In this document: one piece after another, positions 1 through 54,308 of the stretch
Position numbering within the stretch: position 1 is the stretch's first letter
Layout: each line of letters begins with the position of its first letter
IMG/VR virus record: IMGVR_UViG_3300042923_000201
Coordinates: 1-54,453 of that record
DNA length: 54,453 bases
Origin: a virus
Direction: 5' to 3' (one strand)
Position numbers and translations under genes: made by a program
The notes under the pieces: generated by a model
What the model was told of the DNA's origin: nothing
Databases searched by the model: none
What the model saw: only the letters and a program-made list of their open reading frames with translations

Positions 1-712
1 AGGTATATATAGTGTAGTATATTGTAGCCTGTTATACACAGTATATACAGTTGGTATAGAGGGTAGTTAATAGGGGGGAGGGGTATGGGTAGTACTGTAT
101 GTGTGGATAGTTACTGTATGAGTATGTGGTGTGGATACTGTCCTGTATTACTGCCTTGAATGTATCAACTGTAAACTATTTACATTAACAATCAGTCCCT
201 CTAATGGCAGTTCTTTACAGTTAATTTGCAATAATTAATTTACAATAAAGTTACAATAATGTTACAACTGTATAAATGTTAATTAATTACAATTCTTACA
301 GTTAGTTACTGTGAACCCTACCAACGGTGGAACTGGGAGATATTAGGTGCTGTCCAGTGTATTTACCATATATACATCAAATTTTACTTTTAGGGTACAA
401 TTATACAGTTCTCACAATCCCTTACAGTCCAATAAAGTACAATACAGTTACCTTACCCCCCACCACTGGATTTGACATCTACAACAAGGTAAATTCTGTC
501 CTAAAAATTTTTATACTATTTTATACTTTTGTGTAATTTATATAGTTGTATTACTGTTATACAGTTTATAGGGGTAATACAGTACTACCGTTAAACTGGT
601 TTAGCCAATTGTACAACTACATAAGGTTACATAGTAAGGTTGTAAAACTGTATTACAGTGTATATAGTACCTGTATAAATAAACAATAAAAATGAATGGA
701 GTGTATACATAT
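1..712. other. Gene-free left end
   Basis: No convincing gene is present: the one longer open frame (327-536) has no ribosome binding site and a low-complexity product. The stretch is AT-rich and carries repeated TACAGT/ACTGTA words (for example around 45-60, 96-120, 215-225, 297-312, 395-445 and 550-580), plus a G-rich block at 71-84. The position at the window end and lack of genes suggest a terminal, packaging or replication region. If the molecule is circular or circularly permuted, this joins the gene-free right end into a non-coding region of about 1.5 kb. Confidence 0.5.
71..84. repeat. G-rich 14-mer shared with right end
   Basis: TAGGGGGGAGGGGT at 71-84 is identical to 53688-53701. 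Shortened relatives (GGGGAGGGGTC, GGAGGGGTC) occur at 53718-53728 and 53752-53760. It lies in gene-free DNA at both ends of the window. Function unknown; a packaging or terminal signal or a G-quadruplex element are possibilities. Confidence 0.6.
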
Positions 713-1153
713 ATGTCAAGTACTAACGGTTTACCAACTCGTAAAAGTCGTAATTATGCAAAAGGAACATTGGATGCTGTCCAAACATTAGTTGCAGAAG
801 AAATAGCCTTCAAGCATCTTACAGGTAAGACAGAAGAACAAATAGCAGACGAACATAATGTAAGTAGGGTATCAATTTGGAGGTGGAAGTCACTACAGGC
901 ATTTAATGACCATATTAATACTGTTGTAAAGGAGTACCAAAGGAGTAACCTAGTGGACGTAAATGCCACCTTAATCGACATCCTAATCAACGGTAATGAG
1001 AAGTCAAAACTAAAAGCTATAGAACTTTATTATCGTACTCAAGGTATGTTTAAAGATAATTTGGAAGTTACTGCCTTAAATGGGGGTAATAAAAGTGATA
1101 TAACAGTGGACGACATTATGGCAGAATTGGATGATATTACGTTATTGGACTAG
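713..1153 (+). CDS. terS: Terminase small subunit
   Basis: 146 residues. The N-terminal half holds a helix-turn-helix (EEQIADEHNVSRVSIWRWKS, about residues 43-62) typical of phBC6A51-type small terminases. The C-terminal half has the GNEKSKLKAIELYYRTQG pattern these proteins use for oligomerisation. The family binds packaging DNA and loads the large terminase. ATG at 713 was chosen over ATG at 692 because GGAG (698-701) lies 11 nt upstream of it. The gene stands alone on the + strand, about 6 kb from terL, with a leftward operon between them, which is atypical because terS and terL are usually adjacent. It could instead be a generic HTH regulator. Confidence 0.75.
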   Translation: MSSTNGLPTRKSRNYAKGTLDAVQTLVAEEIAFKHLTGKTEEQIADEHNVSRVSIWRWKSLQAFNDHINTVVKEYQRSNLVDVNATLIDILINGNEKSKLKAIELYYRTQGMFKDNLEVTALNGGNKSDITVDDIMAELDDITLLD

Positions 1154-5674: not shown

Positions 5675-6298
5675 CTAACCACACCTTTCAATATCTTTTA
5701 ATTTATATTTTAATTTACTTAAAGCCACTTTATTTGTACGACTGATATGTGCCTGTGATGTACCTAGTTTATGGGATACCTCTACCTGTGTCAATCCCTG
5801 TATGTATAATAAGTCCACTATTTCTCTATGTCTAGGCGGTAAAGATTGTACTGCCATATGTAATACCGACTTTTCTTCCTCTAATAACAATTGTGAATCT
5901 ACTGGTGCATCCTCACTTTGTACTATCTCAACTAATGATAAATCACTGCCATCTTTTGTAGGTATTTTATTGTCTAATGATACTGTATGTATATGCCTTC
6001 TCTTTTTAGTTCTTAATACATCATTAAGACCCATGCTTAGTACAGAGTAAGCAAATGTAGTAAAATGTAAACCTCTGTTTATGTCAAAATCCTTTATTGA
6101 CTTTATGAGTAGTAGCTTACAGATAGATAACAAGTCCTCATGTTCCTCACCTATATTACAATACTTATGTGCAAACCGTTGACATATCTTTTCATTTATC
6201 TGTATTAACTTCCACAAATACTTGTCCTTATTTGTCTGTTTAAAGAGTTTCATGTACCCTTTGTTCAACCTATTGTAACTTGTCGGTATAACAATCAT
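5675..6298 (-). CDS. Sigma-70 family RNA polymerase sigma factor
   Basis: 207 residues with the layout of a small alternative sigma factor. Region 2 covers about residues 40-100 (HEDLLSICKLLLIKSIKDFD, GLHFTTFAYSVLSMGLNDVL), with the core-binding and -10 recognition helices. Region 4 covers about 150-200 (LPPRHREIVDLLYIQGLTQV, then EVSHKLGTSQAHISR), a clear helix-turn-helix. It resembles sporulation-type sigma factors of Bacillota. GAGGG precedes the ATG. Encoded in the early leftward operon, it could direct later phage transcription, for example from the eight class M promoters. That pairing is inference; the 32658 gene is the rival candidate. Confidence 0.85.
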   Translation of the reverse strand: MIVIPTSYNRLNKGYMKLFKQTNKDKYLWKLIQINEKICQRFAHKYCNIGEEHEDLLSICKLLLIKSIKDFDINRGLHFTTFAYSVLSMGLNDVLRTKKRRHIHTVSLDNKIPTKDGSDLSLVEIVQSEDAPVDSQLLLEEEKSVLHMAVQSLPPRHREIVDLLYIQGLTQVEVSHKLGTSQAHISRTNKVALSKLKYKLKDIERCG

Positions 6299-7134: not shown

Positions 7135-8850
7135 ATGGGAATTACAAACTTAAATATACCTGATACTGTACAGGACAGGTTAAATGACTTAGCAACTACA
7201 GTAAGGAAGTTAGCATATGTAGCTAAAACAGAAGAACTATCTCAACAGGAGTTAACAAGTACTTTAGAATCCATTAAGAAAGTAAAACAGGAATACAGGG
7301 TATTAAGAAGTGAATATGATGTGTTGTATTTTGCGTATGAATACTTTTCAGATACATATAACATAGATAATGACAATAATCTAATACCTGATATATACAC
7401 GGTTAATAATGCACCTGACTTTCATGGGGAGTTGTGCGGTTTTCTTAATACATTAAATGACAATATTACTCAACGTATATGTTGGTCTGTACCCCGTGGA
7501 CATGCTAAAAGTGCTTACTTATCTAACATATTTCCAGTACATCAGATAATTTATAAGAAACGTCATTACATATTGGTAGTGTCAGAAACAGAGAGTATGT
7601 CTCAAAAGTTTATAGAGTGGATAAGTGGACAACTAAAGTATAACAAGAAACTACGGGAAGATTTTGGAGAGTTACTACATGCAAACAAAATGGCAAATGA
7701 TACAGATAATACCAATGCCTTTGTAACTACCACAAACATTCTTATACAGTCTGCCTCTATAGGTAAACAGTTAAGGGGTGCTAGACATGGTGCTTACCGT
7801 CCTGACTTAGTAATACTGGATGATTTAGAGTCTTCCAAAAACACTAACACAAAAGAGTTAAGAGAGAAAAACCTACATTGGTTCAACTCAGTAATAATGC
7901 CAATTGGTGACATTACCCGTACAGCATACATATACATGGGAACATTAGTACACGGTCAAGGATTGTTACCTGCTGTAATGAACAGGTCAGACTTTAGAAG
8001 TAAGTTATATAGTGCCATCCTCAGTGAACCTGTTAGACAGGATTTATGGGACGAACTAGACACTATATTAAGAGACGTAGAGAATGAAGACAGAGAAGAA
8101 GAGGCTGACAGATATTACTGGAATAACAAAGAGGCAATGGATGAAGGAGCCTTAACACTTTGGAATGACCGTTTTACATATTATGAGCTAATGAAAATTA
8201 AGGTTAATGTTGGGAGTAGAGCCTTTGGTAGTGAGTATTTAAACCGTCCTACTGATGATGAAACAGCAATATTTAAGTCCTCTTATATACAGTATTACGA
8301 TGATAAAGATTTATACTATGGTGATGGTAGACCAATGAACTTTGATATTTATAGTTTTTGGGATTTAGCTGTAGGTAAGAATGATAGAGCCGATTACAAT
8401 GCCATAATCACAGTAGGTAGAGATAGAAGAACAGGGGTATTATACGTACTGGATGCATGGATAAAGAAAGTACCAATGCACATAGCATTAGAGGAATCCT
8501 TTAAAAAGATACAGGAGTACAGACCCAAAGTATTTGGTGTAGAGACAATACAGGCTCAATATGAAATGTATAGACAGTTACAAGTAAGAGTAACTAAGGA
8601 AGGATTATACGGTACAAGAGTTAAACCAATTAATCCTAGAGGACGTAAAGAGGATAGAATAGAAACATTAGAGCCTTTAATAGAACAGGGTACAATTCGA
8701 TTTAAACAGAACCAAAGATTACTTATAGAAATGTTAATACAGTACCCCACACATGACCACGATGATGGTATTGATGCATTAGCTTCTGTTGTAGATTTAG
8801 CAGGTAAACAACGTAAGAGAAGTTATTACAATAAACCAAAAGGATATTAA
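7135..8850 (+). CDS. terL: Terminase large subunit
   Basis: 571 residues, the ATP-driven packaging motor and headful or cos nuclease. ATPase: Walker A PRGHAKS (residues 120-126), Walker B LVILDD (225-230), coupling YMGT (267-270). RNase H-like nuclease: D410 (SFWDLAVGKND), E470 (VFGVE) and D547 in DDGIDALASV. Length fits the family. ATG 7135 follows GGGGAGAGGGA. It heads the structural operon directly before the portal gene, opposite the divergent early operon. Confidence 0.95.
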   Translation: MGITNLNIPDTVQDRLNDLATTVRKLAYVAKTEELSQQELTSTLESIKKVKQEYRVLRSEYDVLYFAYEYFSDTYNIDNDNNLIPDIYTVNNAPDFHGELCGFLNTLNDNITQRICWSVPRGHAKSAYLSNIFPVHQIIYKKRHYILVVSETESMSQKFIEWISGQLKYNKKLREDFGELLHANKMANDTDNTNAFVTTTNILIQSASIGKQLRGARHGAYRPDLVILDDLESSKNTNTKELREKNLHWFNSVIMPIGDITRTAYIYMGTLVHGQGLLPAVMNRSDFRSKLYSAILSEPVRQDLWDELDTILRDVENEDREEEADRYYWNNKEAMDEGALTLWNDRFTYYELMKIKVNVGSRAFGSEYLNRPTDDETAIFKSSYIQYYDDKDLYYGDGRPMNFDIYSFWDLAVGKNDRADYNAIITVGRDRRTGVLYVLDAWIKKVPMHIALEESFKKIQEYRPKVFGVETIQAQYEMYRQLQVRVTKEGLYGTRVKPINPRGRKEDRIETLEPLIEQGTIRFKQNQRLLIEMLIQYPTHDHDDGIDALASVVDLAGKQRKRSYYNKPKGY

Positions 8851-26992: not shown

Positions 26993-27062
26993 TCACCAAA
27001 ACAGGAATTGAACCTGTACTATCCCATAAAAAGGATTGCCTTAACCATTTGGCTATTCGGTG
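26993..27062 (-). tRNA. tRNA-Lys (UUU), probable
   Basis: Acceptor CACCGAA/TTTGGTG (one G-U), D-arm GCC...GGC, T-arm ACAGG-TTCAATT-CCTGT. The anticodon loop TTTTTAT reads UUU. The anticodon stem AATCC/GGGAT has one A-A mismatch. No encoded CCA. Last gene of the leftward RNA operon. Confidence 0.7.
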
Positions 27063-27070
27063 TTAATAAT

Positions 27071-27144
27071 TGGAGCATCCTACAGGAATCGAACCCATAT
27101 AAACTGATTACAAAACAGTTATTCTACCGTTAAATTAAGGATGC
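27071..27144 (-). tRNA. tRNA-Thr (UGU)
   Basis: Acceptor GCATCCT/AGGATGC perfect, D-loop with GG, T-loop GGGTTCGATTCC, discriminator T and encoded CCA. Anticodon loop TTTGTAA reads UGU (Thr, ACA codons, frequent in this genome). The anticodon stem has a T-T closing pair. Confidence 0.8.
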
Positions 27145-27151
27145 AAAATGA

Positions 27152-27220
27152 GGGCAAGAGTGGAGTCGAACCACATCTTCCGTAAGATAAACGACAGCAA
27201 TACCATTATACTATCTCGCC
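27152..27220 (-). tRNA. tRNA, isotype uncertain (loop reads AUC)
   Basis: Acceptor GGCGAGA/TCTTGCC (one G-U), D-region TATAATGGTATTGC, T-arm GTGG-TTCGACT-CCAC. The best anticodon arm GTCGT-TTATCTT-ACGGA would give AUC with U at position 37, which is unusual for Asp. Real tRNA-like gene by T-arm and acceptor; isotype not trusted. Confidence 0.55.
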
Positions 27221-27232
27221 ACACATTAAATT

Positions 27233-27434
27233 GTCCCTGTGTTTAACCCTTACTTCACAGGCACTACCTCGACAGCTCCATTTAAGTATGCTGTTTAGTA
27301 ATGGTACAATAAAGGGTGGTTAACTCACAGCACTTTATTGTACGTATATAGTTTTTATAGGAAATCACCCTAAAGGAACTGTTGTACTTTATTAATCTCA
27401 TTAGCAATACAGTAGTCAACTGTACTTAAAAATT
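27233..27434 (-). ncRNA. Structured spacer RNA inside tRNA operon
   Basis: About 200 nt with no tRNA signature but several strong inverted repeats: CCTGTG/CACAGG (27236-27241/27256-27261), ACAGC/GCTGT (about 27272-27294), GTACAATAAAG/CTTTATTGTAC (27304-27314/27333-27343, 11 bp perfect), and AGGGTGGTT/AATCACCCT, which overlaps the previous loop and could form an alternative fold. No open frame with a ribosome binding site. Could be a processed non-coding RNA or a decayed tRNA pair. Confidence 0.45.
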
Positions 27435-27436
27435 GT

Positions 27437-27519
27437 GTAAAGGGAGGGGAATCGAACCCCCATACATAATCCAGTTAAAATTGTACGTACAAAATGCTTT
27501 ACCATTAAGCTACCCTCAA
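27437..27519 (-). tRNA. tRNA-like gene with atypical anticodon region
   Basis: Clear D-arm GCTT-AATGGTA-AAGC and T-arm GGGGG-TTCGATT-CCCCT, acceptor TTGAGGG/CCCTTTA with one mismatch. The 33 nt between D-arm and T-arm suggest a long variable arm (Leu/Ser/Tyr class), but the central palindrome TTGTACGTACAA does not fold into a standard 7-nt anticodon loop. No encoded CCA. Confidence 0.55.
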
Positions 27520-27540
27520 CATATGTAATTATTTAATAGG

Positions 27541-27618
27541 CTCTAGTAACAGGATTTGAACCTGTATACAAGGGTATATACATTACCTTGCGATTTACCT
27601 AACTTAATCTATACTAGA
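27541..27618 (-). tRNA. tRNA-like gene, possibly Tyr (GUA), with enlarged anticodon loop
   Basis: Acceptor TCTAGTA/TACTAGA perfect, D-arm GATT...AATC with GG in the loop, T-arm ACAGG-TTCAAAT-CCTGT. The anticodon stem CAAGG/CCTTG is perfect but encloses 12 nt (TAATGTATATAC) instead of 7; TGTA within would place GUA after U33. No encoded CCA. One base separates it from the next gene. Confidence 0.6.
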
Positions 27619-27619
27619 A

Positions 27620-27714
27620 TGGAGCAGAGAACAGGATTGAATACCTGTAACTGGCAAGGAAGGGTCACCTATTGCCTATATTGGGTTTTAGACTTTAATT
27701 TTGTCTACCTCTGC
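27620..27714 (-). tRNA. tRNA-like gene, degenerate core, with CCA
   Basis: Acceptor GCAGAGG/TCTCTGC with discriminator T and encoded CCA, and T-stem ACAGG/CCTGT with an 8-nt loop (TATTCAAT). A D-arm AGAC/GTCT lacks the usual GG. The middle has GGCAA/TTGCC enclosing 14 nt and no clear anticodon arm. It may be a decaying type II tRNA or a tRNA-like RNA. Confidence 0.4.
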
Positions 27715-27732
27715 ATGTTATTTGTTTTAAAT

Positions 27733-27829
27733 TGGAAGAAGGTGTGGGATTTGAACCCACGGGTACAGTGTTTAACTCCACCATTAGTTTTCAAGACTAG
27801 TGCAATAAGCCAACCTCTGCCAACCTTCC
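27733..27829 (-). tRNA. tRNA-Ser (UGA)
   Basis: 97 nt with acceptor GGAAGGT/ACCTTCT, discriminator T, encoded CCA, D-loop with GG, anticodon loop CTTGAAA (UGA), a long variable arm (GGTGGAGTTAAACACTGTAC) and T-arm GTGGG-TTCAAAT-CCCAC. A standard type II serine tRNA reading UCA. Confidence 0.88.
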
Positions 27830-28598: not shown

Positions 28599-28781
28599 TG
28601 TACCAAAAACTGGTACAAGTTGTTACAGAAACTGGTACACGAGGAATGTAGACGTACCAGTGCTTACAGGCTACCGTGTACCAGAAACTGGTACTAATCT
28701 ATATATATACTATACTCAATATCTTTTTAAATACAGTAATACAGTATTAAATACTTACAAAAACAAAAACTGGTACACGGT
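28599..28781. repeat. Palindromic repeat array, copy B
   Basis: TGTACCA-N5-TGGTACA (28599-28617), TGGTACACG (28633-28641), CCGTGTACCA (28674-28683) with TGGTAC following, and TGGTACACGG (28771-28780). Order and spacing match copy A (1164-1361). Here it lies directly upstream of the replication-organiser gene and between a sigma-A promoter and a class M promoter. An open frame across it (28594-28803) is a by-product of the repeats. Confidence 0.8.
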
Positions 28782-28812
28782 GTCACAAATGACTAAAAAA
28801 TAATACATTGTG
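28781..28812 (+). promoter_or_regulatory. Class M promoter (replication operon)
   Basis: TGTCACAAA (28781-28789), 14 nt, TACATTGTG (28804-28812). The -35-like element abuts the last TGGTACACGG of array copy B, so an array-binding protein could compete with polymerase. Drives 28833 onward. Confidence 0.7.
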
Positions 28813-28832: not shown

Positions 28833-29525
28833 ATGTACAACGGTTTTGAATTTGATGGCAGTAATAATAAAGTGGTAGTGGATGTAGAATACTTAAAAGG
28901 CGACTTACTTAAAACAATATCACCTACACAGTTAAAATTGTTATTGGCAATTGTGGCTAATATGGACAGTAATGGAAACTCTTACCCGTCTATGCGTACA
29001 CTACAAGAAATTACTGGAATGTCACTAACTACAGTAAACAAGAATGTTAAAGAGTTACTGGATGTAGAGGTTAATGGTTCACCTGTTATTTATCGTAGGT
29101 TTGAGGGTACAGGGTTAAAGAGGTTTTCTATCTACTCTTTTGTTGAAGATATTACACCTGTAACTGTAGAGGGTGTAGAAGAAAAAGAAAAGGAAAAAGT
29201 ATTCACTGGAAAGATGGCAATAGATTTATTCTGTACAACATTTTTAGAAGAGTTTGGTTACAAATATAAAGTCAGTGGTGCCAAAGACGGAGCTAACATA
29301 AGACGGTTGTTAAATACATATGATGAAGAACAAGTAAGAGCTATAATTTCTATAACAGTTTTAGACTATAAAAAAAGATGGAGTACACCTTCCTACCCTG
29401 TTCCAACAATTGGGGCAATGTGTAGTTGGATTGCTGTTAAGGCATTGGAAATACATAACAACAAAACTAAAAATACAAACAAATGGGATAATATAGAAAA
29501 CGATGAAGACAGTTTAGATTTGTAA
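28833..29525 (+). CDS. Replication organiser / DnaD-like winged-helix protein
   Basis: 230 residues. A winged-helix domain at about 25-105 (SPTQLKLLLAIVANMDSNGN, SMRTLQEITGMSLTTVNKNV) is like phage replication initiators. The C-terminal domain (about 120-210: KMAIDLFCTTFLEEFGYKYK, DEEQVRAIISITVLDYKKRW) resembles DnaD/gpO-type domains. The acidic tail is typical. First gene of the replication cluster, followed by loader, helicase and primase. A plausible ligand for arrays A and B. GAGGGAG upstream; start somewhat uncertain. Confidence 0.75.
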   Translation: MYNGFEFDGSNNKVVVDVEYLKGDLLKTISPTQLKLLLAIVANMDSNGNSYPSMRTLQEITGMSLTTVNKNVKELLDVEVNGSPVIYRRFEGTGLKRFSIYSFVEDITPVTVEGVEEKEKEKVFTGKMAIDLFCTTFLEEFGYKYKVSGAKDGANIRRLLNTYDEEQVRAIISITVLDYKKRWSTPSYPVPTIGAMCSWIAVKALEIHNNKTKNTNKWDNIENDEDSLDL

Positions 29526-29616: not shown

Positions 29617-30375
29617 TTGAATATTGGTGTTGAAGTAAAGGACTGTAAATTCAACAAAACATGTAAGAGATACGATGGGGAAGAATGTAATAATGCTTGC
29701 TACTCATATGTGTTCTTACATGGTGTAACAGGAAGTGGTGGTTTTTGGGGTAGTCGTAATGTACCTAAAATGTATTCAAACTATTTTATACATAACCTAC
29801 CAATTGATGCAGAGAATCCACGGGTATACATAGCAGTACAGAATTATTGTTCTAACATATTGGACAGAGTCCAAAGCAGTAACAGGGGTATCTACTTTAC
29901 TGGGGGTACTGGAACAGGTAAGACAACATGCTCAGTCACAATTCTTAATGAGTATTTATTGGCAAGATGTATACAGCACCTAAAAGGGGAAAAGAGAATA
30001 GAAGTAAATCCTGTATTGTTTTTGAAACTGTCAGAATTACAGAACATTTATAACTCACAGTTTAGAGGAACACCACAAGCTCAAAATGATAGTGCCACAC
30101 ATTACTATTCCCTTAAGGAAAAAATGAAGGAAGTAGATTTATTAGTTGTGGATGATATTGCATTAAGAGGTCTTCCTGAGGGTTTTATGAATGAGTTGTA
30201 CGAGATAGTGGACTACAGAGCCACTGAGGAAACAACTACCCTGTTTACATCCAACGTAACCTATGATGAATTACCTGAGTTTGTAGGAGACAGAATTGCT
30301 TCACGTATACAAGGTATGTGCGGTAATCAGGTAGTTTTAAAAGGTAAGGATTTTCGTCAGGGGGGTTTATTCTAA
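29617..30375 (+). CDS. DnaC/DnaI-like helicase loader
   Basis: 252 residues from TTG behind GGGGGA. AAA+ ATPase: Walker A GGTGTGKTT near residue 95, Walker B LLVVDDIAL near 175, sensor LFTSNVTYDELPEF near 209-222, and Arg-finger region DRIASRIQGMCG. The N-terminal Cys cluster (CKFNKTCKRYDGEECNNAC, about residues 9-27) looks like a zinc-binding site that contacts helicase or DnaD-like partner. Loads the helicase encoded next; stop/start overlap TAATG. Confidence 0.9.
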   Translation: MNIGVEVKDCKFNKTCKRYDGEECNNACYSYVFLHGVTGSGGFWGSRNVPKMYSNYFIHNLPIDAENPRVYIAVQNYCSNILDRVQSSNRGIYFTGGTGTGKTTCSVTILNEYLLARCIQHLKGEKRIEVNPVLFLKLSELQNIYNSQFRGTPQAQNDSATHYYSLKEKMKEVDLLVVDDIALRGLPEGFMNELYEIVDYRATEETTTLFTSNVTYDELPEFVGDRIASRIQGMCGNQVVLKGKDFRQGGLF

Positions 30376-31640
30376 TGTTAGAAAACAAACTATTAAGTAA
30401 GGTATTAATATGTAAAGAAATATTACCTTTATTTAAAGGTAATGTAGTTGCAGATGATTTTTATACTCAAGGAGATACATATAACTATATTAAAGAATAT
30501 TACAAAGAGTACGGGGAAGTTCCTCCAATGGAGACAGTTGTTAGTGATTGTGATTCTTTTGAGTATGTAGGGGAAGTTCCTGATAAATTTGAGTACCTAA
30601 TTAATTCCATTAAAGATGCCACATCCAAACGGGTAGCCTATGAGTTGTTACAGAATGAAGCAGGGAATAAGTTCTCTACTTTAAGTGGTGTAGCTTTTTC
30701 AGACTGGTTATTACAGGAGGCGACTAGATTAAATAGATTGTCCCATGTAAATTCCACCACTGGAACTAACTTTGCGGTAAATGGTAAAGACCGTAAAGCA
30801 GAATACTTGGAACGTAAAGAGAAAAAGAGTGGTTCCTTCATACAGACACCTTATCCATCCCTTAACACTTGGTTAGGTGGGGGAATGGAGTTAGGGGATT
30901 ACACTTTACTTAATGCCTACACCAACAGAGGTAAGAGTTGGATAGCAGGGGATTTTGGTGTAATGGCTTGGAGAAAAGGATTTGGTGTACTACATTATTC
31001 ACCTGAGTTAAGTAAGTCTCAACAGATGGACAGACTGGATACTTTAAATGGACACTTTGACAACATGGAGCTAAAGACAGGTAATTTAAAGCATGAGGAA
31101 AAGTATTTGACTTACTTGGATACTTTTGATGAAAGTAATGAAGTTCCATACATAATAAAAACAATGGATGATTTAAGTAATGGATTGTCATTAGAGGTCA
31201 TTGAAGCGGACATACAGGCTAACAGTGACATTAAGCTAGTCATTATAGATGGTTTTAATTTAATGTCTCATACGGGTTCCTCAGGGTCTTCTAAGAGGGA
31301 CAAGATGTCTTCTACTTCTAGGGAAATACGACAGTTGTTTGGTAAATACGGTATATCAGTATTAGTTGTACATCACACTCCTACATCAGCAGAAAAGGAA
31401 AACAAAGAGACAGATGAAGCAGGTACTAGAATAGTTAAGCCACCTGAGATACACCAATATAGTGAGACAGTGGCAGTAATACAGGATGCTTGTACAGTAT
31501 TAACATTTGACCAAAGGGACGGTATCGGAGCATTAAAGTTAGCTAAGGCACGTACCCCATTTGTAGACCAACAAATAGAGTTACATTGTGATTTTAATTT
31601 AGGTATTATTAGAGAGGTAAGTCCAGTAGATTACTTCTAG
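30375..31640 (+). CDS. Replicative DNA helicase (DnaB-like)
   Basis: 421 residues. N-terminal helical domain (LLSKVLICKEILPLFKGNVV) then RecA-type motor from about residue 160: TPYPSLNTWLGGGMELGDYT, Walker A variant AYTNRGKSW, YSPELSKSQQMDRLD, Walker B LVIIDGFNLM, and VLVVHHTPTS. Gly-light P-loop TNRGKS is common in phage DnaB relatives. Unwinds the fork and recruits primase, whose gene follows. Confidence 0.9.
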   Translation: MLENKLLSKVLICKEILPLFKGNVVADDFYTQGDTYNYIKEYYKEYGEVPPMETVVSDCDSFEYVGEVPDKFEYLINSIKDATSKRVAYELLQNEAGNKFSTLSGVAFSDWLLQEATRLNRLSHVNSTTGTNFAVNGKDRKAEYLERKEKKSGSFIQTPYPSLNTWLGGGMELGDYTLLNAYTNRGKSWIAGDFGVMAWRKGFGVLHYSPELSKSQQMDRLDTLNGHFDNMELKTGNLKHEEKYLTYLDTFDESNEVPYIIKTMDDLSNGLSLEVIEADIQANSDIKLVIIDGFNLMSHTGSSGSSKRDKMSSTSREIRQLFGKYGISVLVVHHTPTSAEKENKETDEAGTRIVKPPEIHQYSETVAVIQDACTVLTFDQRDGIGALKLAKARTPFVDQQIELHCDFNLGIIREVSPVDYF

Positions 31641-31652
31641 GGGAGAGATACA

Positions 31653-32606
31653 ATGGGAGTAAGGGTAAAGGGACAGGAATTAGATGTAGACATATTAGAG
31701 GAAATAGAAAGTTTTGACTGGGTAAGAGGGGAAATAAAAACAAACAAGTTTCAAGCCTGTTCCCCTTTTAGAGTAGACTTACACCCCTCATTTGCCATTA
31801 ATTTAGAGGACGGTACTTGGAAAGATTCAGGTAGTACAGATGATTACTTAATAAAAGGTAATTTGACAAAATTGTTAGCAATCTTAAGAGGTGAAACATA
31901 TGAGACAGTGGAAGATTACTTACTACAGAAATACAGTCTCATACTGTCTGATACATCAGCACTAGAATTAAGTATAAATTTAGATGGAGAAAATGTAACA
32001 CCTACATATTTTACTAAGGAAACTTTAAAACATTTATACCCTAACAATTATGATTACTTATTAGGTAGAGGTATTTCCAAAGATGTACAGGATTTATTTG
32101 GAATAGGATACTTAGTAAACAGTTTGGCAGTAGCCTTACCTTGGTCAGATTTAAAAGGGAATATATGTAATGTTAAATACAGGAGAACAGATACTAAGAG
32201 ATTCTTTTATGAGAAGGGTGGTACTCCTATTTCTAAGTTAGTATTTGGAGCCTACTTAAGTAAACTAGAGAAAGCCACAGTTATTTATTTATGTGAGAGT
32301 GAGACAGATGCTTTATACCTTTGGACGTATGGTTACTGTGGGGTAGCTGTAGGTGGTTCTAACCTCACTGATATACAGAAAGACATTATATTAGGTGTGG
32401 GTGCAACATACATAGTTATTTGTACAGACAATGATGGAGTGGGTAATAACTTTGCTAACTCATTAATAAAAGAGTTTACTCCACATTTAGGAGTGTACAG
32501 GCACAAGTTTCCAGTAGGAGTAAATGACATTAATGATTTGAGTTCACAACAAATGTTAGACATTAAAAAAAGGTTAATAAAACCTACTATAAGTTTTTTA
32601 AAATAA
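31653..32606 (+). CDS. DNA primase with Toprim domain
   Basis: 317 residues. Toprim core at about 205-280: VIYLCESETDALYLWTYGY (Glu metal ligand) and IVICTDNDGVGNNF (D-x-D). The N-terminal zinc-finger position (KFQACSPFRVDLHPSFAINL) keeps a single Cys and the LHPSFAI strand, so the CHC2 zinc site appears lost. The region between (YLLGRGISKDVQDLFGIGYL) matches DnaG-like cores. Last of the primosome set. GGGGAGAG before ATG. Confidence 0.87.
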   Translation: MGVRVKGQELDVDILEEIESFDWVRGEIKTNKFQACSPFRVDLHPSFAINLEDGTWKDSGSTDDYLIKGNLTKLLAILRGETYETVEDYLLQKYSLILSDTSALELSINLDGENVTPTYFTKETLKHLYPNNYDYLLGRGISKDVQDLFGIGYLVNSLAVALPWSDLKGNICNVKYRRTDTKRFFYEKGGTPISKLVFGAYLSKLEKATVIYLCESETDALYLWTYGYCGVAVGGSNLTDIQKDIILGVGATYIVICTDNDGVGNNFANSLIKEFTPHLGVYRHKFPVGVNDINDLSSQQMLDIKKRLIKPTISFLK

Positions 32607-37355: not shown

Positions 37356-39518
37356 TTGGTAATAGATGTAAAAGTAGTAAAGAAGGATGGTAGACTGGAA
37401 GACTTTGACTTTAACAAAATAATTGATGCAGTCCAAAAATCTGCTGATAGAGTAGGAGAAGATTTTACAATAAAAAACATTAGAGACATTGAAGTCTTTG
37501 TTGTAGAAAAAGTGGAGTACTGTACAAATGTAACTGTGGAGTCTTTACATGAAATAGTAATAGAAAGTTTACAAAAAGTTAACCATAAAATAGCAGACTC
37601 CTACTCTTCTTACAGGGAATACAAAAAGAAATACAACAAGACATTTGAGAATATATTGGTAGAAAGTAAATCAATTGTATTTACGGGAAATAAAGATAAT
37701 GCCAATAAAGACAGTCAACTAAATAGTACTAAAAAGGAATTGGTGTCAGGTTCATTATCTAAACAGATTTACTTGGATTATGAGTTACCTTCCGTTATTG
37801 CACAGGCTCATAAAGATGGAGACATCTACATACACGATACAAGTGATAGATTGTTTGGGAGTATTAATTGTTGTTTGTTTGATATGGGAGCAGTATTAAA
37901 TGGTGGTTTTAATCTAAATGGTGTAAAGTATACAGAACCTACATCAGCAGAAAGTGCATTGCGTGTGTTAAGTGATGTTATATTACAGGCTTCTTCTCAA
38001 CAGTATGGCGGTTTTACTGTTCCTGAGATTGATACTGTATTGGCTCCATATGTAAACAAGGCAATTAAGAACTCATTCGCATACTACCGTAAAAACATTC
38101 CTAGTATTGACGGGGGTACAGCACGTAACTTAGCTCTTAAATATGTAGAGAGAGCATTAGAACAAGGGTTTCAAGCCACAGAGACTAGATTAAACACAAT
38201 TAATAATAGTAATGGTCAAACAGCATTTATTACATTATCTTTTGGGTTGGATACATCTATATCAGGTAGACTAGTTTCAAAAGTATTATTGGAAAACAGA
38301 AAGAATGGTATTGGTGCCAATCACTTAACACCTGTATTTCCTAAATTAGTTTTCTTACATAGAAACGGGATAAATGGAGAACAAGGTGACCCGAACTATG
38401 ACATATATTTACAGGCACTAGACTGTTCCTTAACCCGTATGTACCCTGATTACTTATCTCTTAATGAAGGTTACTTGGGTGAGATATTTGATAAACATGA
38501 AGTAGCTATTTCACCAATGGGATGTAGGGCATTTCTTTCACCTTGGTATAAAGACGGTGGACAGCACCCTTCCTCACCCACTGACCCAATAGTATATACA
38601 GGTAGAGCGAACTGTGGTGCCATTACTATCAATACTGTAAGATGTGCCATAGAGGCTAAAGGGGATGTAACTAAGTTTTTCCAACTATTTGATAAGAATT
38701 TAAACTTGGCTTTAACAGTACATGACATTACATATCAACAATTAAGTAAGATAAAGGCATCCTCCAATCCACTGTTTTTCTGTGAGGGTGGTTGCCACAT
38801 TAAACTAGACCCAAATGAGACGATAGAAAGAGCCATACGTACATTTACTTGGGGAATAGGTTATATAGGCTTAACAGAGGCATCATATTTAATGACAGGT
38901 AAAGCTACACATGAGGATAATAGTTTTGCCATTAAAGTATTGGAACATTTGAACAAACAACTAGATAAAGCTAAGGAAGAAATGGGATTACTATTTGCAG
39001 TATATGCCACCCCTGCTGAATCCCTATGTTATACATTTAGAGACAAGGATTATGAGAAGTATGGAGAAATTAAAGGGGTTACAGATAAACCTTATTACAT
39101 GAACTCCTTCCATGTGGATGTACAGGCTCCTGTAAATGCCATACAAAAACAGGATATAGAAGACCCATTATTCCATTTAAGTAAAGGTGGACGTATAACA
39201 TTTAATGAGTTCCCTAACAAGTTTAACTTTCAAGGTGTTAAAGAAGTTGTAGATTATGCTATGACTAAAGGTAAATACTTTGGAGTTAACATTGAGTTAG
39301 ATATGTGTAATGACTGTGATGAAGAAGGAGAGTTCGAGGATTACATTTGTCCTAACTGTGGTTCCTCCAACATTACAATGATTGACAGGGTTTGTGGGTA
39401 TTTGTCTTATCGTAAATTAGATGGAGATACCCGTTATAATAAGGGTAAGTTTCAGGAAGTAGAAGACAGAGTAGACCACTTTGGTATAGTAGTTGACATG
39501 GAGGGAAAAGAACTATGA
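37356..39518 (+). CDS. nrdD: Anaerobic ribonucleoside-triphosphate reductase
   Basis: 720 residues from TTG behind AGGGGGA. ATP-cone at the N-terminus (KDGRLEDFDFNKIIDAVQKS). Catalytic barrel with DGDIYIHD, NCCLFDMGAVLNGG and the class III signatures. C-terminal zinc site C-x2-C ... CPNC (about 650-665) and glycyl-radical motif RVCGYLS with the radical at G681. Reduces NTPs to dNTPs without oxygen. Followed by its activase with ATGA overlap. Implies replication in an anaerobic or microaerobic host. Confidence 0.95.
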   Translation: MVIDVKVVKKDGRLEDFDFNKIIDAVQKSADRVGEDFTIKNIRDIEVFVVEKVEYCTNVTVESLHEIVIESLQKVNHKIADSYSSYREYKKKYNKTFENILVESKSIVFTGNKDNANKDSQLNSTKKELVSGSLSKQIYLDYELPSVIAQAHKDGDIYIHDTSDRLFGSINCCLFDMGAVLNGGFNLNGVKYTEPTSAESALRVLSDVILQASSQQYGGFTVPEIDTVLAPYVNKAIKNSFAYYRKNIPSIDGGTARNLALKYVERALEQGFQATETRLNTINNSNGQTAFITLSFGLDTSISGRLVSKVLLENRKNGIGANHLTPVFPKLVFLHRNGINGEQGDPNYDIYLQALDCSLTRMYPDYLSLNEGYLGEIFDKHEVAISPMGCRAFLSPWYKDGGQHPSSPTDPIVYTGRANCGAITINTVRCAIEAKGDVTKFFQLFDKNLNLALTVHDITYQQLSKIKASSNPLFFCEGGCHIKLDPNETIERAIRTFTWGIGYIGLTEASYLMTGKATHEDNSFAIKVLEHLNKQLDKAKEEMGLLFAVYATPAESLCYTFRDKDYEKYGEIKGVTDKPYYMNSFHVDVQAPVNAIQKQDIEDPLFHLSKGGRITFNEFPNKFNFQGVKEVVDYAMTKGKYFGVNIELDMCNDCDEEGEFEDYICPNCGSSNITMIDRVCGYLSYRKLDGDTRYNKGKFQEVEDRVDHFGIVVDMEGKEL

Positions 39519-53410: not shown

Positions 53411-53611
53411 ATGCTTTTTACAAGAACTACTAGACATTGTAATATTAATAATGATAGAACCTGTGAAAAATGTACTTGTAATACATGTGCCATAGAAAGT
53501 ATTTGTAAACTAAGTTTCAATAATTGTACTCTATGTAGTTTTTATGATAATTACCACACTTATTCATGTAAAGACTATGTAAGTAATGAGGGTAACTCTT
53601 ATAGGAACTAA
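53411..53611 (+). CDS. Cys-rich protein (66 aa)
   Basis: ATG 53411 was chosen over the adjacent TTG because GGAGG is 7 nt upstream. Nine Cys in 66 residues (HCNINNDRTCEKCTCNTCAI, NNCTLCSFYDN) form likely zinc knuckles. Last gene of the rightward region, followed by a terminator. Confidence 0.65.
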   Translation: MLFTRTTRHCNINNDRTCEKCTCNTCAIESICKLSFNNCTLCSFYDNYHTYSCKDYVSNEGNSYRN

Positions 53612-53633
53612 CAATAAAATAATTTTTTAATGG

Positions 53634-53660
53634 GGGACAGGTAAAACTGTCTCTTTTTTT
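53634..53660 (+). terminator. Final terminator
   Basis: GGGACAG (53634-53640) / CTGTCTC (53647-53653) with 6-nt loop and a T-run to 53660. Ends the rightward gene region. Confidence 0.8.
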
Positions 53661-54145
53661 ATATGTATGGAAGGTGTACATTTTTTATAGGGGGGAGGGG
53701 TCATTCAAATTTTAAACGGGGAGGGGTCAAAGAGGTATTGGGTTTTGGCAAGGAGGGGTCTACGTGCTATGAGGTTATATATGTGTATATAAGGGAGGGG
53801 GTACTATATAATTACAGGAGAACAGTGTACTAAATAAGGTGTTTAAATTTAAAACAGGTACTAACACTTAGGTGGTAAAATAAAGTGTCTTATTTGGACT
53901 GTTTTATTGGAGACATTTACTTAAAAATAAGTAAAAAAAAGAACAACAATTTAGTTACAACTGTTGTTTAAGAAAAGTAGAATATTTGGATAATTGTTTT
54001 AACTGTTTTCTTTAAAGACTTTCTACACATTATTTCTACATTTATTTACGCTTTTTACACACACCCTACACGCACCCACGCTCACACGCATACATACACG
54101 CGCGAATTTAGTTACTTCCCTCCTTGCTTCTTCTTTTTGGAACCC
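53661..54145. other. Gene-free right end, origin-proximal part
   Basis: No supported gene. Holds three G-rich GGGGAGGGGTC-type blocks (53690-53760), an inverted repeat AACAACA/TGTTGTT around 53943-53969, and a strand-biased C/A-rich tract with repeated CACGC words (about 54055-54106) next to an AT-rich stretch. Together with the DnaA-box array this resembles an origin or terminal region. Confidence 0.5.
53688..53760. repeat. G-rich direct repeats at right end
   Basis: TAGGGGGGAGGGGT (53688-53701), GGGGAGGGGTC (53718-53728) and GGAGGGGTC (53752-53760), about 30 bp apart. The first equals the left-end block at 71-84. Confidence 0.6.
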
Positions 54146-54308
54146 TGTGGATAACTCTGTGGATAATGTGGATAACCTTATCAACACCTGTGGATAACAT
54201 TGTGGATAAAGTTATCAACAGAAGTTATCAACATGTGGACAAGTTATCAACACTGTGGATAAAGTTATTAACAAAGTTATTAACACCTGTGGATTAAACT
54301 GTGGACAA
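54146..54308. promoter_or_regulatory. DnaA-box array, putative replication origin
   Basis: Fifteen DnaA-box-like 9-mers in 163 bp. Six perfect TGTGGATAA: 54146, 54158, 54167, 54189, 54201, 54254. Four TTATCAACA: 54178, 54212, 54225, 54244. Two TTATTAACA: 54265, 54277. Two TGTGGACAA: 54234, 54300. One TGTGGATTA: 54288. Start-to-start spacing is 9-13 bp, mean 11, so sites recur about once per helical turn. TTATCCACA is the established DnaA consensus. Role as origin or DnaA sink is inference. Confidence 0.85.

Follow-up and report, generated by a model that had tools for sequence, protein, structure and literature searches.

A dense, phased array of DnaA boxes in the noncoding region upstream of a phage small-terminase gene, and its possible role as a docking site for host DnaA

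The analysed window is a complete IMG/VR record (IMGVR_UViG_3300042923_000201) of 54,453 bp with a GC content of 34%, which is classed as linear. An array of DnaA-box-type sites lies at 54146–54308, in noncoding DNA between the terminator closing the replication operon and the gene for the small terminase subunit (terS). The rightward operon ends at 53611 and is followed by an intrinsic-terminator-like hairpin on the plus strand (53632–53655; one found, 0.3 expected). Behind the hairpin come, in this order, plus-strand G-run repeats (53688–53810: GGGGGGAGGGGTC, CGGGGAGGGGTC and degenerate copies), a C/A-rich tract (about 54051–54105), a pyrimidine tract (about 54112–54138), the array and, 145 bp beyond it, the end of the contig. 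The C/A-rich flank reported in a preliminary description of this DNA was found on the left side of the array. Its GC content is 52% compared with 34% for the genome, and the local GC of the two tracts together (54051–54138, plus strand) is 46–52%. The start of the contig is likewise noncoding. It carries a GGGGGGAGGGG run on the plus strand at 73–87, which would be placed between the array and terS if the contig ends adjoin, and then terS itself, the first gene past the noncoding region (692–1153, plus strand; phrog_2538, E = 3e-9), whose start is at least 837 bp from the array. The motif GGGGAGGGG occurs at 53692, 53718 and 75 and is confined to the two noncoding end stretches, so the contig ends may lie next to each other in the genome, with some gap between them. 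No overlap or end repeat was found between the two ends of the window, and no excess of promoters was found around the array (7 found, 5.6 expected).

Other features of the window were recorded as well. The purine-rich G-run repeats upstream of terS (53688–53810 and the GGGGGGAGGGG run at 73–87) are shared with positions 1–160 of the related contig L036. The leftward operon between terS and the gene for the large terminase subunit (terL; 7135–8850, plus strand) contains a phage RNA polymerase sigma-factor-like gene (5675–6298, minus strand), and five tRNA genes (Lys, Thr, Asp, Arg, Ser) are located on the minus strand at 26993–27829 within an otherwise plus-strand region. The presence of the anaerobic ribonucleotide reductase NrdD (37356–39518; phrog_487, E = 7e-239) suggests an anaerobic host; phages phi18-2, KLEB27-1, Lietuvens and Unity have aerobic reductases instead.

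The array consists of 15 DnaA-box-type 9-mers within 163 bp, six of them perfect. Nine boxes are on the minus strand (TTATCCACA six times, TTGTCCACA twice and TAATCCACA once) and six on the plus strand (TTATCAACA four times and TTATTAACA twice). The start-to-start spacings are 12, 9, 11, 11, 12, 11, 13, 9, 10, 10, 11, 12, 11 and 12 bp, which gives a pitch of 9–13 bp with a mean of 11.0 bp. The recount thus agreed exactly with the earlier claim of six perfect boxes and nine close relatives in both orientations, phased at about 11 bp. The highest-affinity DnaA box named in the literature is TTATCCACA (PMC8287927), of which the array has the six copies. As in a bacterial-type oriC, boxes with at most two mismatches to this sequence are clustered (15 in 163 bp) and, as in a datA-like titration site, the cluster of high-affinity boxes is in noncoding DNA outside oriC. 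When the 54,453-bp window was simulated 300 times with a first-order Markov model, the number of loose boxes per 163 bp reached a maximum of 4, compared with 15 observed, and the strict motif TTATC[CA]ACA reached a maximum of 2, compared with 10 observed. The gaps between the boxes are evener than if the same boxes had been packed at random (P = 0.0025). The phase coherence is 0.84 at 11.0 bp and 0.41 at 10.5 bp, which indicates that the proposed spacing of one box per helical turn holds locally, with a slow rotation along the array. The array showed no significant hairpin folding (z = −1.55).

In the array, the box type is fully predicted by the strand (9/9 versus 6/6; Fisher p = 2e-4, post hoc). 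We rejected this split as a general rule. Across contigs it first appeared at 50:15, but many of those contigs had been chosen by a pattern demanding the split, and in the unbiased set TTATCAACA was on the same strand in 5/5 cases, not on the opposite one. The split is therefore given as a post hoc feature of the window's array only.

The phage was described earlier as having its own replication genes, and these were found. The HTH_36 winged-helix protein (28833–29525, plus strand; E = 8e-9, RepL-like E = 0.004) may, judging from its domain and position, initiate or organise replication at an origin belonging to the phage. It is followed on the same strand by an AAA+ helicase-loader-like protein (29617–30375) with IstB/DnaC/DnaA-ATPase similarity and 30% identity to the DnaC-like loader of Paenibacillus phage Tripp, a DnaB-like helicase (30375–31640; DnaB_C, E = 1e-13) and a Toprim DNA primase (31653–32606); PolA is also present. 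Directly upstream of the initiator-like gene, ACTGGTAC repeats with two full GTACCAnnnnnTGGTAC palindromes (28599–28793, plus strand) form a candidate origin or operator. A second noncoding cluster of ACTGGTAC repeats lies directly downstream of terS (1164–1361), with four full GTACCAnnnnnTGGTAC palindromes in all, and a single phage regulator probably uses the two clusters as its operator or iteron. That an array of DnaA boxes accompanies such a set of genes had been called surprising; the surprise is moderated, since T7-like and T5-like phages also have DnaA-box clusters. No partition family was found among the roughly 25 larger ORFs scanned. GC skew was rejected as evidence for or against an origin, because it follows gene direction, the coding-strand skew being positive for genes of both strands. 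By the published rule, a DnaA unwinding module has at least three DnaA-trios (3′-NAN-5′) within 0–16 bp of a box (PMC8287927). Candidate trios from the minus-strand AAAAAGAAGAAG beside the first boxes have the wrong polarity under this rule and were discarded.

The large terminase subunit was used as the query for relatives. The closest are IMG/VR contigs L036–L044 (49–68%); further relatives are Heliobacterium and Heliophilum contigs and Bacillus haikouensis (54–56%), Paenibacillus larvae phages such as Tripp (46%), and the Bacillus phages phi18-2 and KLEB27-1 and the Sporosarcina phage Lietuvens (39–41%). A helicase-based search yielded no relatives, and whole-region blastn against known phages gave no match. 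The preliminary description had proposed looking for the same array in related phages; it was absent from every relative in which the equivalent region was compared. None of the 11 relatives compared upstream of terS has a box cluster there, none of the whole IMG/VR relative records contains a two-box match, and no box cluster is present in the examined parts of Tripp, Unity, phi18-2, KLEB27-1 and Lietuvens. The array was thus either gained recently in the phage of the window or lost in the others. The closest relative, L036, has G-run repeats upstream of its terS and no DnaA boxes; palindrome-like repeats (GATTTGAAATC, GGATTTAAAATCC and AATTTTAAATCC) replace them in the same noncoding region (L036:280–400). 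The genomes of Tripp, phi18-2 and Lietuvens carry terL at the left and terS at the right end, so by homology the physical end of the window's phage could be just beyond terS. The G-run was considered as the exact terminus and rejected: in phi18-2 it is about 35 bp from the right end, in the window it is on the other side of terS, and its position is not conserved.

Similar arrays recur in viral contigs. Three exact boxes in close range were found in 34, at least 120 and 21 IMG/VR contigs in three pattern scans, and at least six boxes in about 160 bp were found in 54 viral contigs (29 dereplicated groups). The window's array is the densest of those found. Neither the first 34 records nor 50 array-rich ones encode DnaA domain IV. 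In a set selected without spacing bias, 182 pairs of adjacent boxes had a distance of 11 or 12 bp, and there was a further peak at 21–22 bp (63) and a weaker third at 32–33 bp, which indicates helical phasing. The pattern GGGGnGGGG is 6.6-fold commoner in noncoding DNA near the arrays than in the rest of these contigs (29 versus 11 matches; p = 1e-8, an optimistic value since the contigs are partly related). Of 69 complete contigs, 15 have their array no more than 300 bp from a contig end, compared with 5.9 expected, an excess to which assembly breaks at repeats could contribute. The ORFs flanking the arrays include helicase/primase (3), TerL phrog_38 (3) and phrog_2 (2), whereas, among the families listed for distant ORFs of the same contigs, TerL is missing and a replicative helicase or primase occurs at most once; with such small numbers, this enrichment is suggestive. 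In the marine-type contigs L003, L005 and L008 the arrays are close to CobS/CobT-like genes (phrog_249, phrog_17276), and in L003 and L008 also to terS.

In the case of known phages, a synthetic tandem-box query matched 583 records. Box clusters lie within the first 170 bp of the T7-like phages A7 and phiEap-1. In nasanit and P483 they adjoin the terminase, in the T5-like phage BF23 they fall inside its annotated terminal repeat, and in the Arthrobacter phages Tiff81 and Seahorse the record end is about 100 bp away. Perfect TTATCCACA repeats, often spaced at 21–22 bp, were also seen at record ends or beside the terminase in five T7-like loci (L075, L076, L077, L081 and L214; Berlinvirus, Eapunavirus, Molineuxvirinae). 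Matches in Staphylococcus phages are short and mostly in coding sequence and were taken as chance. Several microviruses of about 4.5–5.7 kb (OQ686952, KT264787, PQ006258, PQ007401, PQ006781 and MG945739) match the array query, some of them near a replication initiator gene. We found no paper in the open-access literature that presents phased DnaA-box arrays as an element of phages.

The preliminary description had named assembly contamination from a host origin as a concern, and the array does resemble oriC-type box clusters and lies 145 bp from a contig end. This worry is largely answered. Phage-type motifs are present on both sides, namely the GGGGAGGGG copies and, in the right flank, ACTGGTATTAC and GGTACT; the latter two also occur in noncoding DNA elsewhere in the phage, which indicates that the array is embedded in phage DNA. 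The window contains no dnaA or dnaN and no DnaA domain IV (Bac_DnaA_C). A comparable three-box cluster, defined as two TGTGGATAA and one TTATCAACA within about 90 bp with origins included, was found in only one genome among 83 from the Heliobacterium class and one among 399 from the Bacillus haikouensis class, so that 480 of the 482 genomes lack it in these two likely host classes, which the scan covered. Contamination is therefore very unlikely. The preliminary description had also proposed an origin dependent on DnaA, with a phage-plasmid lifestyle. At such an origin, of the phage-plasmid or an auxiliary type, host DnaA would open the adjacent DNA and the phage loader would place the phage helicase there. 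The dense boxes at an oriC-like 11-bp pitch, the weak DnaA-ATPase similarity of the DnaC/IstB-like loader, and the arrays beside a helicase or primase gene in unrelated phages (L004/L018, L006, L009/L034, L023, L027 and L031) are consistent with this proposal. Against it, neither edge of the array has a DnaA-trio module (longest run of 1 on the left and 2 on the right, with scoring confined to the edges because the boxes overlap in the interior), and trios are no more frequent at the edges of other phage arrays than at control positions. The AT content adjoining the array is not above the genome background, the neighbours are phage genes rather than the dnaA/dnaN of an oriC, and about 25 kb separates the array from the replication genes, where the initiator-like gene has a repeat cluster of its own next to it. 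The array is missing in relatives that have these replication genes in common with the phage. Moreover, T7-like phages with DnaA boxes are not known to use DnaA for their replication. A DnaA-fired origin is thus the less likely reading, possible and not favoured.

The strongest rival is a role at the genome terminus or in DNA entry, in which DnaA bound at the end would mark the concatemer junction for terminase or pause entry, as has been proposed for the injection stop signal of T5, in which DnaA boxes are described (PMC13250531). What speaks for it is position: the array belongs to the noncoding DNA that precedes terS, the genome ends of Tripp, phi18-2 and Lietuvens fall between terS and terL, arrays adjoin terS or terL in L003, L007, the L008 group, L010, L020 and L021, and phiEap-1, A7, BF23, Tiff81 and Seahorse have terminal clusters. 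The G-run enrichment near arrays and the excess of arrays at contig ends point the same way. In these respects the earlier suggestion of a packaging function gains positional support, and we regard a terminus or entry role as unlikely on balance, to be taken seriously all the same. Against such a role, the window has no end repeat and is a record classed as linear, contigs could break at arrays for assembly reasons, many arrays do not adjoin terminase genes, and by homology the end may be on the other side of terS, about 1.3–1.5 kb away. In addition, the boxes of the T5 and T7 relatives are fewer and otherwise spaced. Alternatively, DnaA might act at the array as a transcription factor on the terS region or its neighbours, so that the phage would sense the host cell cycle. 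DnaA doubles as a transcription factor, and phages of Alphaproteobacteria offer a precedent in their CtrA sites, which are clustered in terminal repeats and gap regions; the DnaA sites in the same phage set are not clustered (PMC9437464). Near the array there is no promoter excess, the start of terS is distant, and fifteen sites are far above the usual operator. This makes a sensor function rather improbable.

Of the functions suggested in the preliminary description, the decoy that titrates DnaA fits best, and we tentatively prefer to read the array as a phage-owned docking site that would capture host DnaA as a sink. Judging from the sequence, host DnaA very probably binds the array, and capture may, again tentatively, be its main effect. 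The reading draws on box density and pitch far beyond chance, with six boxes of the highest-affinity type, and on a noncoding location behind a terminator-like hairpin with no promoter excess. It also draws on the lack of DnaA domain IV in the phage and of a trio module at the array edges, on the phage's own initiator-like gene, loader, helicase and primase with their separate repeats, and on the recurrent gain of such arrays across viral contigs, with TTATCCACA clusters in T7-like phages too. According to the proposed mechanism, host DnaA would bind cooperatively, as is suggested by neighbouring sites one turn apart, and would cover 54146–54308. As phage copies accumulate during infection, the 15 sites per genome would soak up DnaA. 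E. coli has about 200 DnaA molecules per oriC, and plasmid-borne DnaA boxes titrate DnaA in vivo (PMC5835720). With this E. coli value and 15 sites, about 13 phage genomes would match the DnaA available per host origin. An oriC starved of DnaA would start no new host rounds, and nucleotides and replication proteins would be freed for the phage. The position in the terminal terS region may add a second use, either an entry pause or terminus marking; capture and a terminus or entry role are not mutually exclusive. Several points count against capture. The TTATCAACA, TTATTAACA, TTGTCCACA and TAATCCACA boxes may be weak sites for the DnaA of the actual host. A pure sink leaves the terminal or terminase-adjacent preference and the G-runs unexplained, the relatives manage without an array, and T7-like phages, which destroy the host chromosome, would hardly need a DnaA sink.

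Taken as a whole, the array is a DnaA-box cluster, which is a known kind of element, of unusual density, and it seems to be part of a wider, poorly described class of phage elements. That unrelated phages keep the same one-turn pitch suggests that selection acts on cooperative binding and not simply on box number. It is conceivable, if doubtful, that phased host-DnaA-box arrays are a convergent element of unrelated phages that favours terminal or packaging regions beside G-runs, where a DnaA filament would couple entry, terminus handling or host-replication shut-off to the host initiator. If phages repeatedly build such landing strips for DnaA, a central replication switch would be reached by DNA alone, with no inhibitor protein, and this would offer a simple way of blocking host initiation or labelling phage ends. 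It could also account for the long-unexplained DnaA boxes of the T5 injection stop signal.

The array was compared with known systems. The other IMG/VR arrays (L015, L022, L027, L004/L018, L016, L007, L023 and others) are alike in their pitch of 10–13 bp, mostly intergenic location and lack of DnaA domain IV; they differ in belonging to other lineages and in having 6–11 boxes in about 160 bp, compared with 15 in 163 bp, and their neighbours vary (helicase/primase, terminase, methyltransferase, endolysin). The terminal TGTGGATAAC repeats of the T7-like phages phiEap-1 (L076), A7 (L075), ZK1 (L077) and nasanit (L081) are likewise perfect boxes beside genome ends or packaging genes, but they are in a single orientation, often spaced at 21–22 bp, and number four to six. 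The injection stop signal of T5 is described as containing DnaA boxes (PMC13250531). Such a signal would combine DnaA boxes with repeats and palindromes in the genome-terminal repeat; in the window boxes and G-run repeats are present, the array shows no significant folding, and its placement in a terminal repeat is conjectural. The terminal repeat of the T5-like phage BF23 (L213) similarly has DnaA boxes in a noncoding terminal region with 12-bp spacings. It contains four close boxes between divergent pre-early promoters, whereas the window has 15 boxes and no known two-step entry system. The titrating clusters of bacteria (E. coli datA and the B. subtilis DnaA-box clusters) are also noncoding high-affinity boxes outside oriC that could hold many DnaA molecules; datA in addition catalyses DnaA-ATP hydrolysis (PMC5835720). 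In contrast to these few dispersed boxes, the window's array is phage-borne, with 15 boxes in 163 bp at helical pitch. With bacterial oriC it shares the close, roughly one-turn box spacing in both orientations, and it differs in having no DnaA-trios within 16 bp of its edges and no dnaA or dnaN nearby. Both box quality and box density are higher in the window's array than in the genomes of possible hosts.
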